Source: Nitrospinaceae bacterium (GTDB lineage Bacteria; Nitrospinota_A; UBA7883; JAJDBK01). Taken from it: a stretch of 64,000 bases of DNA. The stretch is taken from positions 1-64,000 of the forward strand of contig JAJDBK010000047.1 in the NCBI GenBank assembly GCA_029261405.1, written 5' to 3'. Under the pieces are notes generated by a model. It searched no databases. It had not been told where the DNA came from and saw only the letters and a list, made by a program, of their open reading frames with translations. A program made the translations under genes and the position numbers. Shown here in pieces: positions 48,201 through 54,654 of this stretch; within the stretch, counting starts at the first letter, position 1, and the number at the start of each line of letters is the position of its first letter.

Positions 48201-48592
48201 TTACAGACTCCGGCCTCTACGTTGTCACCCTGCGCCTTGGCCGAAAGAAGCGGATAAGGATCGGCAAACTGGGTGTTATCGAGTTCCAACCAGGATGTTA
48301 TCTATACGTGGGAAGCGCCAGCAAAAACCTTCGCAAAAGAATCGAACGCCACAAACGCCGCGAAAAACCATTACAATGGCACATTGACTATATACGACGG
48401 CATTGCCGGTTCATCGGCGTTACATTGGCTGGTATTGACGAGGGGGAATGCTCGTTGGCCGAAAGGGTCATACGGTCTGTGGATGGTAAAATCGCATATC
48501 CCCGCTTTGGCGCCAGCGACTGCAACTGCGCAGGACACCTGATATTCAGTGAGGAGATTAAGTCGTGGAAAGAAACCTTTTTGAGCATATAA
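48140..48592 (+). CDS. DUF123-type GIY-YIG-like protein
   Basis: A protein of up to 150 residues; the true start may be later because the first 20 codons overlap the yqaA-like gene in another frame. The core is clear: SGLYVVTLRLGRKKRIRIGKLG, the YLYVGSASKNLRKRIERHKR motif of the GIY-YIG fold, and LQWHIDYIRRH. This DUF123 group is related to nuclease domains fused to Nth or found alone. The catalytic Arg and Tyr positions seem present (YLYVGSA and RIERH). Substrate unknown. Confidence 0.8.
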   Translation: MGSRNSGNPRICSHQIPDPLITDSGLYVVTLRLGRKKRIRIGKLGVIEFQPGCYLYVGSASKNLRKRIERHKRREKPLQWHIDYIRRHCRFIGVTLAGIDEGECSLAERVIRSVDGKIAYPRFGASDCNCAGHLIFSEEIKSWKETFLSI

Positions 48593-49182
48593 CCTGGTTA
48601 CAGGGGCAAAATAGCGACCCCGTTACGCAAAAAGAGAAGATCTGGCGAATTTTCGGATGTAACAAGGCTATTCTGGTTCTCGACTCGTCCGGTTTCACGA
48701 TGATAACAAAAGAATTCGGTATCGTACATTTTCTCTCTGCGCTTATGAGAATGAGAAGTGTTAATACACAGGTGTTCAAGGAGAATGGATGCGGATACCT
48801 GCACTGTCAGGCAGACAACATAATCGCTTCGTTTAACACCCCGCAAACAGCCCTGAAAGCGGCTATCGAGGCCAATATCGCCTTGAAAAAAGAGTTTAAA
48901 ACCTCCCCGGAGAACGAACGTCTCTCCGTCTGTATCGGTATAGGGTACGGAAAACTGCTCGACACAAAAACGGTTGAAGGTTTCTACGGTGACGAGATGA
49001 ACATGGCCTCCAAGCTTGGGGAAGACGAAGCCGGGGCCGAAGAGATTTTAGTCACCCCCGCCGCGTTTGAAGGGCTTTCAGAAAAATACCGGGAACTTTT
49101 TGCGATAGGCGAGTTTTCCATATCGGGCAAACCGGCGACCTATTACAAAACGAACCTTTCACAAGCGCAAAACGCTGGATAA
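48565..49182 (+). CDS. cyclase-homology domain protein
   Basis: A 205-residue protein from GTG 48565, overlapping the previous gene by 28 nt. It is a single class III cyclase-homology domain: AILVLDSSGFTMITKEFG with the first metal Asp, CQADNIIASFNTPQTALKAAI with the second, GIGYGKLLDTKTVEGFYG and DEMNMASKLGED, where the catalytic Asn is kept but the following Arg of NxxxR is Lys. Activity is doubtful but cannot be excluded. The N-terminal 30 residues may be a small regulatory helix. Confidence 0.75.
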   Translation: MERNLFEHITWLQGQNSDPVTQKEKIWRIFGCNKAILVLDSSGFTMITKEFGIVHFLSALMRMRSVNTQVFKENGCGYLHCQADNIIASFNTPQTALKAAIEANIALKKEFKTSPENERLSVCIGIGYGKLLDTKTVEGFYGDEMNMASKLGEDEAGAEEILVTPAAFEGLSEKYRELFAIGEFSISGKPATYYKTNLSQAQNAG

Positions 49183-50038: not shown

Positions 50039-51025
50039 ATGGACAAACAATCGATAGAGCCGTGGGCCACGAAACCTGAAATAGCGCTTTTTGTTTTGCT
50101 CCTGTCTACAGTAGTGGTAACGGCGTTATCTTATCCCCAACATCTGTTAGCTCCGGGCGCGAGGTCCCCTGTGCACGCCGGGATAAAAGAGTGTTCCGCC
50201 TGCCATCTCCCCTTTACCCAGCCCCGGGGCGAAACGTGTGTATCATCCGGTTGTCACGACGATATTTTCTGGAATAAAAGAGCGGGGATTTTCAAAGGTC
50301 ATCTCCTTGACAAGGGGTGTATGGGTTGTCACAGCGAACATGTGGGCGCCAAAGGGAAGGTGACATTCGTGGCTCCTCACTCTTTTGTAAAACCGTACAG
50401 TAGTTGTACCGACTGTCACGCGATGAATCCGGGTCACGCGAAGACTAACGAACCAGAGTGCAGTACCTGTCACCTGATGAGTAATTGGAAACTGGCCTGG
50501 TATTCCCATCAAGGCGTGGACTCATCCAGCCCATGTACGGATTGTCACGAATTACCCGGCTATCATTTTAAAACACGGGTGAAATGCATAAACTGTCACA
50601 GCTTTACGAAATGGAAGAGCGAAAAATTTCGCCATAAAAGGGAAAAGAAAAAGATATGCTCCGAGTGCCACAGCTTCAACCAGGATCACCATAAAACCAC
50701 AAAGGGTTGCGATTCCTGCCATCACACCGGAAAGTGGGGATCGATAAAAATAGAGCACTCATTCCCGATTCAACACGGCGCAAAATATTACAATAACAAG
50801 TGCGTCGTTTGTCACCCGGAGTCTCTCGATAAAGCCGACTGTTATTCAGGATGCCATCATCACTCATCACCCGAAGTTATCAAACTTCATGTTGATAATG
50901 GGATAACCGAGGTCTTGACATCATGCAACGATTGCCATAAATCGGGGACGGAGCATTCAGCCAGATCGGGCGATTCCGGCGAGAAATATCGGCTCAGGGA
51001 CCTGTTCATGAAGATGTACGAATGA
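50039..51025 (+). CDS. multiheme c-type cytochrome (10 canonical plus 2 variant heme sites)
   Basis: A 328-residue protein with an N-terminal membrane anchor or uncleaved signal (about 14-31, EIALFVLLLSTVVVTALS). Ten CXXCH motifs are at residues 52, 94, 123, 141, 166, 183, 207, 224, 255 and 296. Two more sites have wider spacing: C67-x4-C72-H73 and C268-x3-C272-H273. The protein thus may bind up to 12 hemes, with many extra His as distal ligands (such as SEHVGAKG, HSFVKP, HHHSS). Such periplasmic wires carry electrons between inner and outer membrane. It is directly upstream of a b-type membrane cytochrome. Confidence 0.92.
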   Translation: MDKQSIEPWATKPEIALFVLLLSTVVVTALSYPQHLLAPGARSPVHAGIKECSACHLPFTQPRGETCVSSGCHDDIFWNKRAGIFKGHLLDKGCMGCHSEHVGAKGKVTFVAPHSFVKPYSSCTDCHAMNPGHAKTNEPECSTCHLMSNWKLAWYSHQGVDSSSPCTDCHELPGYHFKTRVKCINCHSFTKWKSEKFRHKREKKKICSECHSFNQDHHKTTKGCDSCHHTGKWGSIKIEHSFPIQHGAKYYNNKCVVCHPESLDKADCYSGCHHHSSPEVIKLHVDNGITEVLTSCNDCHKSGTEHSARSGDSGEKYRLRDLFMKMYE

Positions 51026-51050
51026 TTAATCGTAAACTTTTGTCCGGGAG

Positions 51051-51695
51051 ATGCGGTTTAATATATTTCCCGAAAATATCTGGCGCATGGAGGCGAATTT
51101 GAATCAGCGGGCAAGGAGGTTCTCCCGGCTACCTATCCTGTTAATGATACTGGCGTTGACCCTTGTCATTACAGTTGTTAGCGAGATCATGATAGACAGG
51201 CTGTTGAATCAGCCACGAAGTGATTTCCATCTGCTTGTGCATTCCATGGGGAGTATAGGGGTGTTGATGGCAATACTCTCTCTTGCCGGATATGTGATTA
51301 AAAAAAACTGGTCAGCGTTTCCGTTGATGCAGAAAGACTGGCTCGACGCGCACCAGGTTCTCGCCGTATTGGGAGTCGTTTTTATCCTGCTACATACCCG
51401 TTTTTACTTCAGATCCTCTATAGCCAGTTTCACGTTTTTATATTACCTGCTCTGTGTGGTAAGTGGATTCGCTGGACGAATTATTTTCACCACGGTCAAA
51501 AACAGGATAAGAAAAAGCAGAGATGAACTGACGGGAAAGGAGATCTCTGAAGATGAAGTGGAGGATAAGCGGGTTGTAGACACTGCGTTATCAGATACAA
51601 TGGCAAAGTGGCGAAAGGTTCACCGGACCCTGACCATGATCCTCGTTGTGTTTCTTGTATTGCATATTGTTTCGTCCCTCTATTTTGGTGGTTAA
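51051..51695 (+). CDS. b-type cytochrome-like membrane protein
   Basis: A 214-residue protein with about five membrane helices (27-47, 60-82, 100-116, 125-146, 190-211). Histidines are placed as in diheme b-type cytochromes: H101 and H115, 14 apart in one helix, and H191 and H205, 14 apart in another, plus H60/H64. It probably passes electrons from the quinone pool to the adjacent periplasmic multiheme cytochrome (25 nt upstream). The start is uncertain: ATG 51051 directly follows a GGGAG, ATG 51087 has no better site. Confidence 0.75.
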   Translation: MRFNIFPENIWRMEANLNQRARRFSRLPILLMILALTLVITVVSEIMIDRLLNQPRSDFHLLVHSMGSIGVLMAILSLAGYVIKKNWSAFPLMQKDWLDAHQVLAVLGVVFILLHTRFYFRSSIASFTFLYYLLCVVSGFAGRIIFTTVKNRIRKSRDELTGKEISEDEVEDKRVVDTALSDTMAKWRKVHRTLTMILVVFLVLHIVSSLYFGG

Positions 51696-53223: not shown

Positions 53224-54654
53224 ATGACTGATGACGCTTATACCGGCTGGATCGACCGGGAGATGGTGGCCTATTATATGGCGCCTGTGGTGGGTGAGTT
53301 ATTCAACCGCCAGGGAATCGAGATAAAGGTGTTCGGGAAATCGTTGATAAACGAAACGCCCCTCTCCGTTCTGAAGATCATTGAGCGGGGAAACCTGATA
53401 AGTGGCGAGACTCTGGAAATCCAGGTTTATAAGGATTTGCTCGATGCTGTTAGCGGCATGGGCCTTGCCTTAAGCAAGATCGACCTGGGTAAGCTGGTTC
53501 TCCGTTACAGCCACGAAAAAGAGAAATTTCCATCCGCCAAACAGTTTATCAGGTCGGAGTTGCCCGATATTTTCTTTAATACCGACGCCGGGCCGGAGAG
53601 ACCCAAAGACGTGGTGTTGTACGGTTTTGGGCGGATAGGTCGTGTCCTGATGCGTCTTCTGGTCCAGACCACAGGCGCAGGACGGTTCTTCAGAATCAGG
53701 GCTGTGGTGGTTCGCGGTGAAGGTGGAGCGAAAGATCTGGTCAAACGGGCTGAGTTGTTGAGACACGACTCGATCCATGGCACGTTTGAAGGCATAATCC
53801 GCGAAGACCCGGAAAACTCGGAACTGATCGTAAACGGCGCCCGGATAAAATTTATCTTTGCAAACAACCTTGATGAGCTTGATTACGCCTCATACGGATA
53901 CGAAAACGTTGTAGTGGTCGACAACACCGGCAGGTGGCGTGACCGGGAGGGGTTATCACAACACCTTAGCGGGGTTGTGAGAAAAGTGATCCTGACAGCT
54001 CCCGGCAAGGGGGATATTCCGAATATCGTTTACGGTTTGAACCATGAGGGAAACTGCAAGGACAGCGTTATATCGTGCGCAAGTTGCACCACCAACGCTG
54101 TCTCACCCGTGCTGAAAGTCTTGAGTGACGAGTATGGCGTGGAGTCGGGCCATATAGAGACGATCCACTCCTTTACCAACGATCAGAACCTGCTCGATAA
54201 CTTTCACAACGCCGACAGGAGGGGACGGGCCGCTCCCATGAACATGGTGATTACCACCACCGGCGCCGCCTCTGCGGTAGCCAAAGTGCTTCCTGAGTAT
54301 GCGGGAAAGCTGACCGGCAACTCGGTACGGGTGCCGACTCCCAACGTCTCGCTGGCGATTCTGAATCTTGCGTTTTCACAACCGGTCGGCCTTGCGGAAC
54401 TTAACGAGTTCCTCCGAAAATCGGCGGTCCACTCGAAATTGCAGAAACAGATCGACTATACGATCTATCCTGTAGTAAGCGCCGACCTGGGGAAATCGGT
54501 CTATTCTGGGATCGTAGACAGTCTGGCGACGATCGTCCGGGAGAACCACGCCGTTATCTATGTTTGGTACGACAACGAGTTCGGGTACAGCCATCAGGTC
54601 AAACGACTTATCAAGTATGTTTGTGGCGATACGGTCCCGGAATACAACGGATAA
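53224..54654 (+). CDS. glyceraldehyde-3-phosphate dehydrogenase, long form
   Basis: A 476-residue GAPDH. Residues 1-125 are an N-terminal extension (WIDREMVAYYMAPVVGELFN, and a helix-rich remainder) not found in the usual 330-residue enzyme. Residues from 128 show the Rossmann start VVLYGFGRIGR, the catalytic Cys in SCASCTTNAVSP (about 288), HSFTNDQNLLDNFH and WYDNEFGYSHQVKRL. Long GAPDHs of this kind occur in marine gamma- and deltaproteobacteria; their physiological role (glycolytic or gluconeogenic) differs. Ribosome site GAGG 9 nt before the ATG. Confidence 0.93.
   Translation: MTDDAYTGWIDREMVAYYMAPVVGELFNRQGIEIKVFGKSLINETPLSVLKIIERGNLISGETLEIQVYKDLLDAVSGMGLALSKIDLGKLVLRYSHEKEKFPSAKQFIRSELPDIFFNTDAGPERPKDVVLYGFGRIGRVLMRLLVQTTGAGRFFRIRAVVVRGEGGAKDLVKRAELLRHDSIHGTFEGIIREDPENSELIVNGARIKFIFANNLDELDYASYGYENVVVVDNTGRWRDREGLSQHLSGVVRKVILTAPGKGDIPNIVYGLNHEGNCKDSVISCASCTTNAVSPVLKVLSDEYGVESGHIETIHSFTNDQNLLDNFHNADRRGRAAPMNMVITTTGAASAVAKVLPEYAGKLTGNSVRVPTPNVSLAILNLAFSQPVGLAELNEFLRKSAVHSKLQKQIDYTIYPVVSADLGKSVYSGIVDSLATIVRENHAVIYVWYDNEFGYSHQVKRLIKYVCGDTVPEYNG

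Follow-up and report, generated by a model that had tools for sequence, protein, structure and literature searches.

A conserved gene pair for a predicted dodecaheme c-type cytochrome and a small diheme b-type cytochrome in a Nitrospinaceae bacterium

Two adjacent genes in a 64,000-nucleotide stretch of a Nitrospinaceae genome (the stretch analyzed is called the window throughout) encode a predicted membrane-anchored c-type cytochrome with 12 heme sites and a small, five-helix b-type cytochrome (Table 1). With a probability of roughly 0.6, we read this pair as an inner-membrane electron-exit module, most likely fed by quinol, that would send electrons outward to a periplasmic or outer-membrane acceptor. 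The sequences show the pairing of the two genes, the conservation of their His and Cys residues, the modular spacing of the heme sites, and a kinship between the b protein and inner-membrane b proteins of the PCC-like kind. Among the steps of extracellular and periplasmic electron transfer, the entry points at the inner membrane are little understood, and the pair supplies a Nitrospinota-like lineage with a concrete respiratory module. The host genome comprises 3.27 Mb in 81 contigs and is 99.5% complete.

Table 1. Positions in the window of the two cytochrome genes and their sequence features
Feature	Position	Strand	Remarks
Membrane-anchored dodecaheme c-type cytochrome gene	50039..51025	+	328 aa, 10 CXXCH + CX4CH + CX3CH
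N-terminal hydrophobic helix of c protein	50075..50131	+	residues 13-31; hydropathy; confident part of model
CX4CH, second site of c protein	50237..50257	+	residues 67-73
Conserved C-terminal three-heme block of c protein, CXXCH - CX3CH - CXXCH	50747..50959	+	
CX3CH, next-to-last site (11 of 12) of c protein	50840..50857	+	residues 268-273
Five-helix diheme b-type cytochrome gene	51051..51695	+	214 aa as listed; likely start TTG 51099, giving 198 aa
GGAGG, ribosome-binding-like, before TTG 51099	51089..51093	+	sequence, five bases upstream
WX3HX13H of b-protein helix 3	51339..51395	+	W97, H101, H115
SGXXG (SGFAG) of b-protein helix 4	51462..51476	+	residues 138-142
WX3HX13H of b-protein helix 5	51609..51665	+	W187, H191, H205

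The ten CXXCH motifs of the c protein lie at residues 52, 94, 123, 141, 166, 183, 207, 224, 255, and 296. When the residues of the protein were shuffled 5000 times, the mean numbers of motifs per protein were 0.15 for CXXCH, 0.15 for CX3CH, and 0.16 for CX4CH. The CXXCH array is thus far above chance expectation, while a lone CX4CH and a lone CX3CH in one protein are by themselves weak evidence. The two wide-spaced sites nevertheless recur at fixed positions: CX4CH is the second site and CX3CH the next-to-last site in all eight full-length c proteins of the phylum, that of the window included. In an alignment with seven c relatives from outside the phylum, both positions are occupied by ordinary CXXCH (7/7), and the aligned blocks place the CX4CH and CX3CH at the same points with two and one extra residues, respectively. 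Since they align with ordinary CXXCH motifs in these seven relatives, the wide-spaced sites are very probably heme sites, and we rejected the idea that they are degenerate, non-heme motifs, given also that their Cys, Cys, and His residues are kept in 8/8 in-phylum proteins. The earlier note had listed the same motifs and placed the heme number at 10 to 12; its motif list stood, and the protein is best described as having 12 predicted heme sites. Histidines that lie in the heme region but outside the motifs outnumber the sites in all 15 c proteins compared (17 for 12 sites in the window protein), which would be enough for bis-His ligation throughout. Wide-spaced heme sites are known from cytochrome c3. 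The CX3CH is not a trait of this phylum only, an idea that we discarded because a 16-site protein from another genome (G350, locus L116), which has a related C-terminal block, also carries CX3CH as its next-to-last site.

Hydropathy analysis revealed a single hydrophobic stretch in the c protein, near the N-terminus. It falls within the sole confident part of a predicted model whose mean pLDDT of 50 and pTM of 0.23 make it unusable, and we take this stretch to be an uncleaved inner-membrane anchor. The N-termini of 15 c-protein relatives likewise appeared hydrophobic when inspected by eye. Among Pfam families, the c protein matched Cytochrom_CIII (PF02085) with 28.4 bits (cut-off, 22.9) and the c7 cytochromes (PF14522) with 25.9 bits (cut-off, 24.8). 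These matches are weak and just over the curated cut-offs, and the resemblance has its limits, in that c3 and c7 cytochromes are tetraheme and triheme proteins, whereas the heme sites of the window protein form an extended linear series closed by end blocks peculiar to its family. The protein scored only 17.1 bits against the NrfH model (cut-off, 134.2), used as the profile for the small tetraheme quinol dehydrogenases of the NapC/NirT/NrfH/CymA group, and 14.4 bits against TIGR03508, the MtrA/DmsE decaheme model (cut-off, 192.2). The best E value against PDB sequences was 0.034.

The b protein as listed begins at ATG 51051. We consider TTG 51099 the likelier start because the match to the b-family profile begins there and a GGAGG sequence precedes it; the resulting protein of ~198 aa resembles its relatives in length, and TTG 51099 is probably the true start. 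Five helices were modeled with a mean pLDDT of 78, in agreement with hydropathy, and 20 of the 23 counted Lys and Arg residues fall in loops on the N-terminal side. The two pairs of His residues 14 apart, which the earlier note had also observed, held up in the family comparison: both HX13H pairs (four His) and the SGXXG motif are kept in 15/15 b proteins, 14 of them aligned and one (G048) read from its sequence. The Trp before the first HX13H pair is present in eight of these proteins, including that of the window, and missing from seven. We identified no quinone site in the b protein.

Pfam matches to the b protein were marginal, and fold searches added little. Prokaryotic cytochrome b561 and DUF4405 were matched at 31.6 versus 30.1 bits and 26.9 versus 26.7 bits (score versus cut-off), a Foldseek search returned nothing at E ≤ 0.001, and the best E value of the b-family profile against PDB sequences was 0.59. 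The top 20 hits of a VIA search included NADPH oxidase, STEAP, b561, and b6f proteins with Z scores of 10-11 and root mean square deviations of 3.2-8.1 over 137-172 residues, a range in which designed helix bundles score equally. Profile comparison with hhalign linked the family to a PCC-like b protein of 289 aa, encoded ahead of 20-site and 10-site cytochromes (97.7% probability, E 1.8e-12), to a 242-aa plasmid-encoded b protein (96.0%), and, more weakly, to a 275-aa protein of the own genome (88.8%).

The published signature that the b protein fits is that of the inner-membrane proteins of the proposed PCC3 and PCC4 clusters, which join a porin with periplasmic or extracellular multiheme cytochromes. 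The inner-membrane proteins carry SGXXG in helix 4 and WX3HX13H in helices 3 and 5, and two hemes b and quinone activity have been inferred for them in the available text of He et al. (2017; PMC5566968). The window protein shares the five helices, SGXXG, both WX3HX13H motifs, and the adjoining multiheme gene; the correspondence is to the published signature rather than to the PCC sequences themselves. It differs in length (198-214 aa, against the approximately 300 aa given for the PCC3 protein in the same portion of PMC5566968), and the pair differs from a PCC conduit in that the partner is an inner-membrane-anchored, 12-site c protein with no porin-like gene adjacent. A second comparison, by partial published descriptions, is with CbcL, MtrH, and MtoC, which likewise combine a multiheme c part with a diheme b part in an inner-membrane, quinone-active unit of variable heme number (3-23 hemes among CbcL homologues, according to the part of PMC6295460 available). 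Those proteins are, however, single fused polypeptides with mostly six membrane helices, as opposed to two genes and five helices. ImcH, as far as the descriptions available extend, is also a membrane-anchored multiheme c protein with one CX3CH, but it has three N-terminal helices, the CX3CH by the membrane part, and 6-10 sites, whereas the window c protein has one helix, the CX3CH in next-to-last position, and 12 sites. On these comparisons, the window pair would work like CbcL or like a PCC inner-membrane unit, although it is not fused in the manner of CbcL and no porin cluster can be seen around it. The earlier note's proposal of an inner-membrane b/c electron module is supported, as judged from the conserved pairing described below and the PCC3/PCC4 signature. 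No description of this gene pair was found among the titles and passages covered, which included PMC10734462 and PMC9769843, both in part, and covered few subscription journals.

The two genes travel together. Relatives of the c protein were found at E ≤ 1e-15 in 8 of the 60 genomes searched, the own genome included, all within the phylum. With the b profile, the same threshold gave matches in 6 of the phylum's 24 genomes, and E ≤ 1e-10 gave matches in 38 of 385 genomes. Two pairs each occur in the own genome and in G004. All eight in-phylum b genes directly follow a c gene (at one locus, G011, the c gene is cut by the contig end), and in seven genomes outside the phylum (G372, G102, G347, G076, G074, G048, and G243; b match E ≤ 2.2e-23) a multiheme c gene directly follows the b gene (7/7). 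The b and c genes therefore form a conserved pair, in the order c-b within the phylum and b-c outside it. Two of ten in-phylum c loci have no adjacent b gene, one encoding an 18-site protein (G018) and the other a 158-aa protein with 5 sites (G021). The b and c trees concur in a supported split between in-phylum and outside proteins, a supported G347-G074 fork, and groupings of the second G004 pair (G004b) with G012 and of G007 with G008; they leave the order of two in-phylum pairs unsettled, and long branches were flagged in the c tree. A contig search with an alignment gave six loci, apparently in genomes already counted, where an earlier scan had given none.

Five of the weaker b-profile matches were inspected (L064, L065, L066, L068, and L070) and proved to be open frames of ~290-440 aa, with a multiheme gene following at L064 only. 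Among 31 plasmid records with a match, three were inspected: in Sphingobium, both HX13H pairs of the b protein are present but SGXXG is not, and the Legionella anisa protein shows one HX13H pair only. On the Sphingobium and Caulobacter plasmids (L100 6252-9609 and L101 6273-9606), the b protein, 242 or 240 aa long, is encoded between a 2Fe-2S protein and a c protein with 7 sites, and the Sphingobium reductase has NAD, FAD, and 2Fe-2S domains. These plasmid trios of reductase, b, and 7-site c genes adjoin copper and heavy-metal resistance genes.

We compared 15 full-length c proteins, eight from within the phylum and seven from outside it, and found that their lengths follow a modular plan. The spacers of all eight in-phylum proteins follow the pattern 2-4-2...2-3-2, while all seven outside proteins contain CXXCH only. 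The in-phylum proteins have 10, 12, 12, 12, 16, 18, 19, and 22 sites; seven of these counts equal 8 + 2k, with k = 1, 2, 2, 2, 4, 5, and 7, and the 19-site protein (G012) is the irregular one. The outside proteins have 8 or 10 sites. Distances between in-phylum sites are 15, 27, 28-30, and 18 at the start and 30-31, 13, and 27-28 at the end, with repeats of ~25 + ~17 in the middle, such that fixed end blocks flank one to seven copies of a ~42-residue, two-heme unit (one irregular). Two members of one genus, G007 and G008, have wires of unequal length (22 and 16 sites), and the array of the former is still a DNA tandem repeat with a period of 126 bases, three copies, and 82% matches. The same repeat search found no DNA tandem repeat in the window c gene. 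Ten of the 15 c proteins end in at least three consecutive Asp residues (e.g., L039 10490 and L043 10997); the window protein does not, and a 9-site cytochrome at the G076 locus likewise ends in an Asp run.

The C-terminal block was also used alone as a query against 385 genomes (E ≤ 1e-8). It was found in 17, ten of them outside the phylum, while missing G347 and G243. Five further outside matches comprise four long multiheme proteins (L110, L116, L117, and L119) and a short, 4-site frame (L113), and the short stretches read there showed no gene for a b protein of the family type. The type of module is known as such; what is unusual here is the ladder of lengths between fixed caps, together with the lineage-wide CX4CH and CX3CH positions. 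These patterns suggest that heme-chain length in the c family is an evolving property, set by the number of repeats between fixed blocks. We tentatively propose that the proteins form an unnamed family of inner-membrane-anchored heme wires, built of ~42-residue, two-heme repeats between fixed caps (8-22 sites), each with a dedicated small diheme b protein and with varied terminal partners, and that wire length may be tuned to the distance of the acceptor across the periplasm. With its constant caps and repeats that can be counted, the family offers the same heme wire in several naturally occurring lengths, on which the effect of length on electron transfer could be tested directly.

In the outward-directed module that we favor, the b protein, through its four invariant His residues in two HX13H pairs, would bind two hemes b stacked one above the other through the membrane. 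It would draw electrons most likely from quinol, or less likely from a cytoplasmic donor, and deliver them to the c protein, whose N-terminal helix would anchor it while its 12 bis-His hemes c form a chain into the periplasm. From there, electrons would be handed to a soluble or outer-membrane acceptor. Heme loading, quinol as the donor, the outward direction, and the acceptor are the parts of this scheme that we infer.

The same module could run inward: Fe(II), a partner cell, or some other outer donor would feed electrons into the c wire, and the b protein would reduce quinone. We judge this unlikely, despite precedents: PCC3 and PCC4 clusters of iron oxidizers have been proposed to carry electrons toward the quinone pool (PMC5566968, in the part available), and CbcL/MtoC-type proteins are thought to work in both directions (PMC6295460, likewise in part). 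The own genome also contains a candidate for an outer-membrane conduit of the porin-cytochrome kind. On contig C45 (57953-60712; L089 8953-11712, - strand), a 919-aa open reading frame with 33 heme-type sites (29 CXXCH and 4 wider) is followed by a gene whose product has a signal-like stretch, ends in F, has no Pfam match, and by eye looks like an outer-membrane beta-barrel. However, no sign of an external donor was seen among the neighboring genes in the window, and the paralogous pair of the own genome shares its run of genes with an oxidase-family protein, an arrangement that suggests electrons flowing outward to a terminal reductase.

That paralogous locus also suggests a quite unlikely alternative, in which the pair is not extracellular in purpose and is instead a small, private quinol:cytochrome c oxidoreductase feeding a heme-copper oxidase or an NO-reductase-like enzyme. 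On contig C57 (41505-45073; L037 7505-11073, + strand), a row of genes on one strand encodes a 448-aa protein of the COX1 family, a pair of monoheme cytochromes c, a 10-site c protein, and a b protein, with neighbors from 4 bases overlapping to 58 bases apart; the genome has three COX1 places above the cut-off. The 448-aa protein is divergent, with no NCBIfam match and no PDB match at 0.01. Against this alternative, tblastn at E ≤ 1e-3 with the 448-aa protein and both monoheme cytochromes found no relative in the window or at the eight other in-phylum loci (with flanks of 73 to 12305 bases, both one-sided extremes), and 12-22 hemes would be more than a brief transfer to cytochrome c calls for.

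The donor of the exit module need not be quinol, since distant b proteins adjoin NAD/FAD/2Fe-2S or 4Fe-4S proteins. Besides the plasmid trios, the G076 locus has an FAD/4Fe-4S protein upstream of 292-aa and 190-aa b proteins and a 10-site c protein, followed by 20- and 9-site cytochromes, and in the own genome (contig C73 31779-34782; L090 9779-12782, + strand) a cyclic-nucleotide-binding/4Fe-4S protein precedes the 275-aa b protein and an 8-site c protein. At the G243 locus, a hemerythrin gene adjoins the c gene. A fully quinone-free route, from a cytoplasmic NAD(P)H/FAD/Fe-S reductase through b to c as in ferric-reductase or NOX systems, would suit these loci and the HX13H arrangement, which the ferric reductase domain shares (PMC5566968, part seen), but it is improbable for the window pair, given that neither the Sphingobium nor the G076 reductase has a relative in the window or at the nine in-phylum loci (E ≤ 1e-3) and that the sole match of the C73 protein is to a gene for cyclic-nucleotide binding in L037, which lies 6.5 kb ahead of the pair at that locus.

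In the window, the pair is flanked by a methyltransferase gene upstream and by ankyrin and lipoprotein genes downstream, followed by genes for GAPDH, the exonuclease VII small subunit, and a polyprenyl synthetase. We assessed the conservation of these neighbors by tblastn (E ≤ 1e-3) over 18 loci, 16 with other family members and two with other cytochrome genes of the own genome, with flanks that vary and are short at three loci. Neither the lipoprotein nor the upstream methyltransferase had a match at any of the 18 loci, and the sole ankyrin match, at L041, lies ~7 kb from the pair there and probably reflects just shared repeats. We therefore rejected the ankyrin protein and the lipoprotein as conserved parts of the module, contrary to the suggestion in the earlier note that they might be accessory. 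Of the gene order for which that note had advised a search, only the b/c pair is conserved (15/15 b loci inspected); the ankyrin and lipoprotein genes are not, as judged over these 18 loci. No porin family was found among the 17 neighboring genes between 43.0 and 58.9 kb, all of which match some family except the 224-aa lipoprotein, and no terminal electron partner was seen among the window's neighboring genes.

The nearby TlpA-like protein is a generic thioredoxin-fold match (114 bits against the ResA model; cut-off, 170). CcmF is present in the own genome and ResB was not found, which indicates System I-type cytochrome c maturation. Two further observations concern the neighborhood. A short open reading frame upstream of the pair (48565-49182, + strand) matches guanylate cyclase just below the Pfam cut-off (20.9 versus 21.9 bits). 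GAPDH proteins are usually ~335 aa long; that of the window (53224-54654, + strand) has 476 aa, with ~125 residues ahead of the NAD-binding domain.
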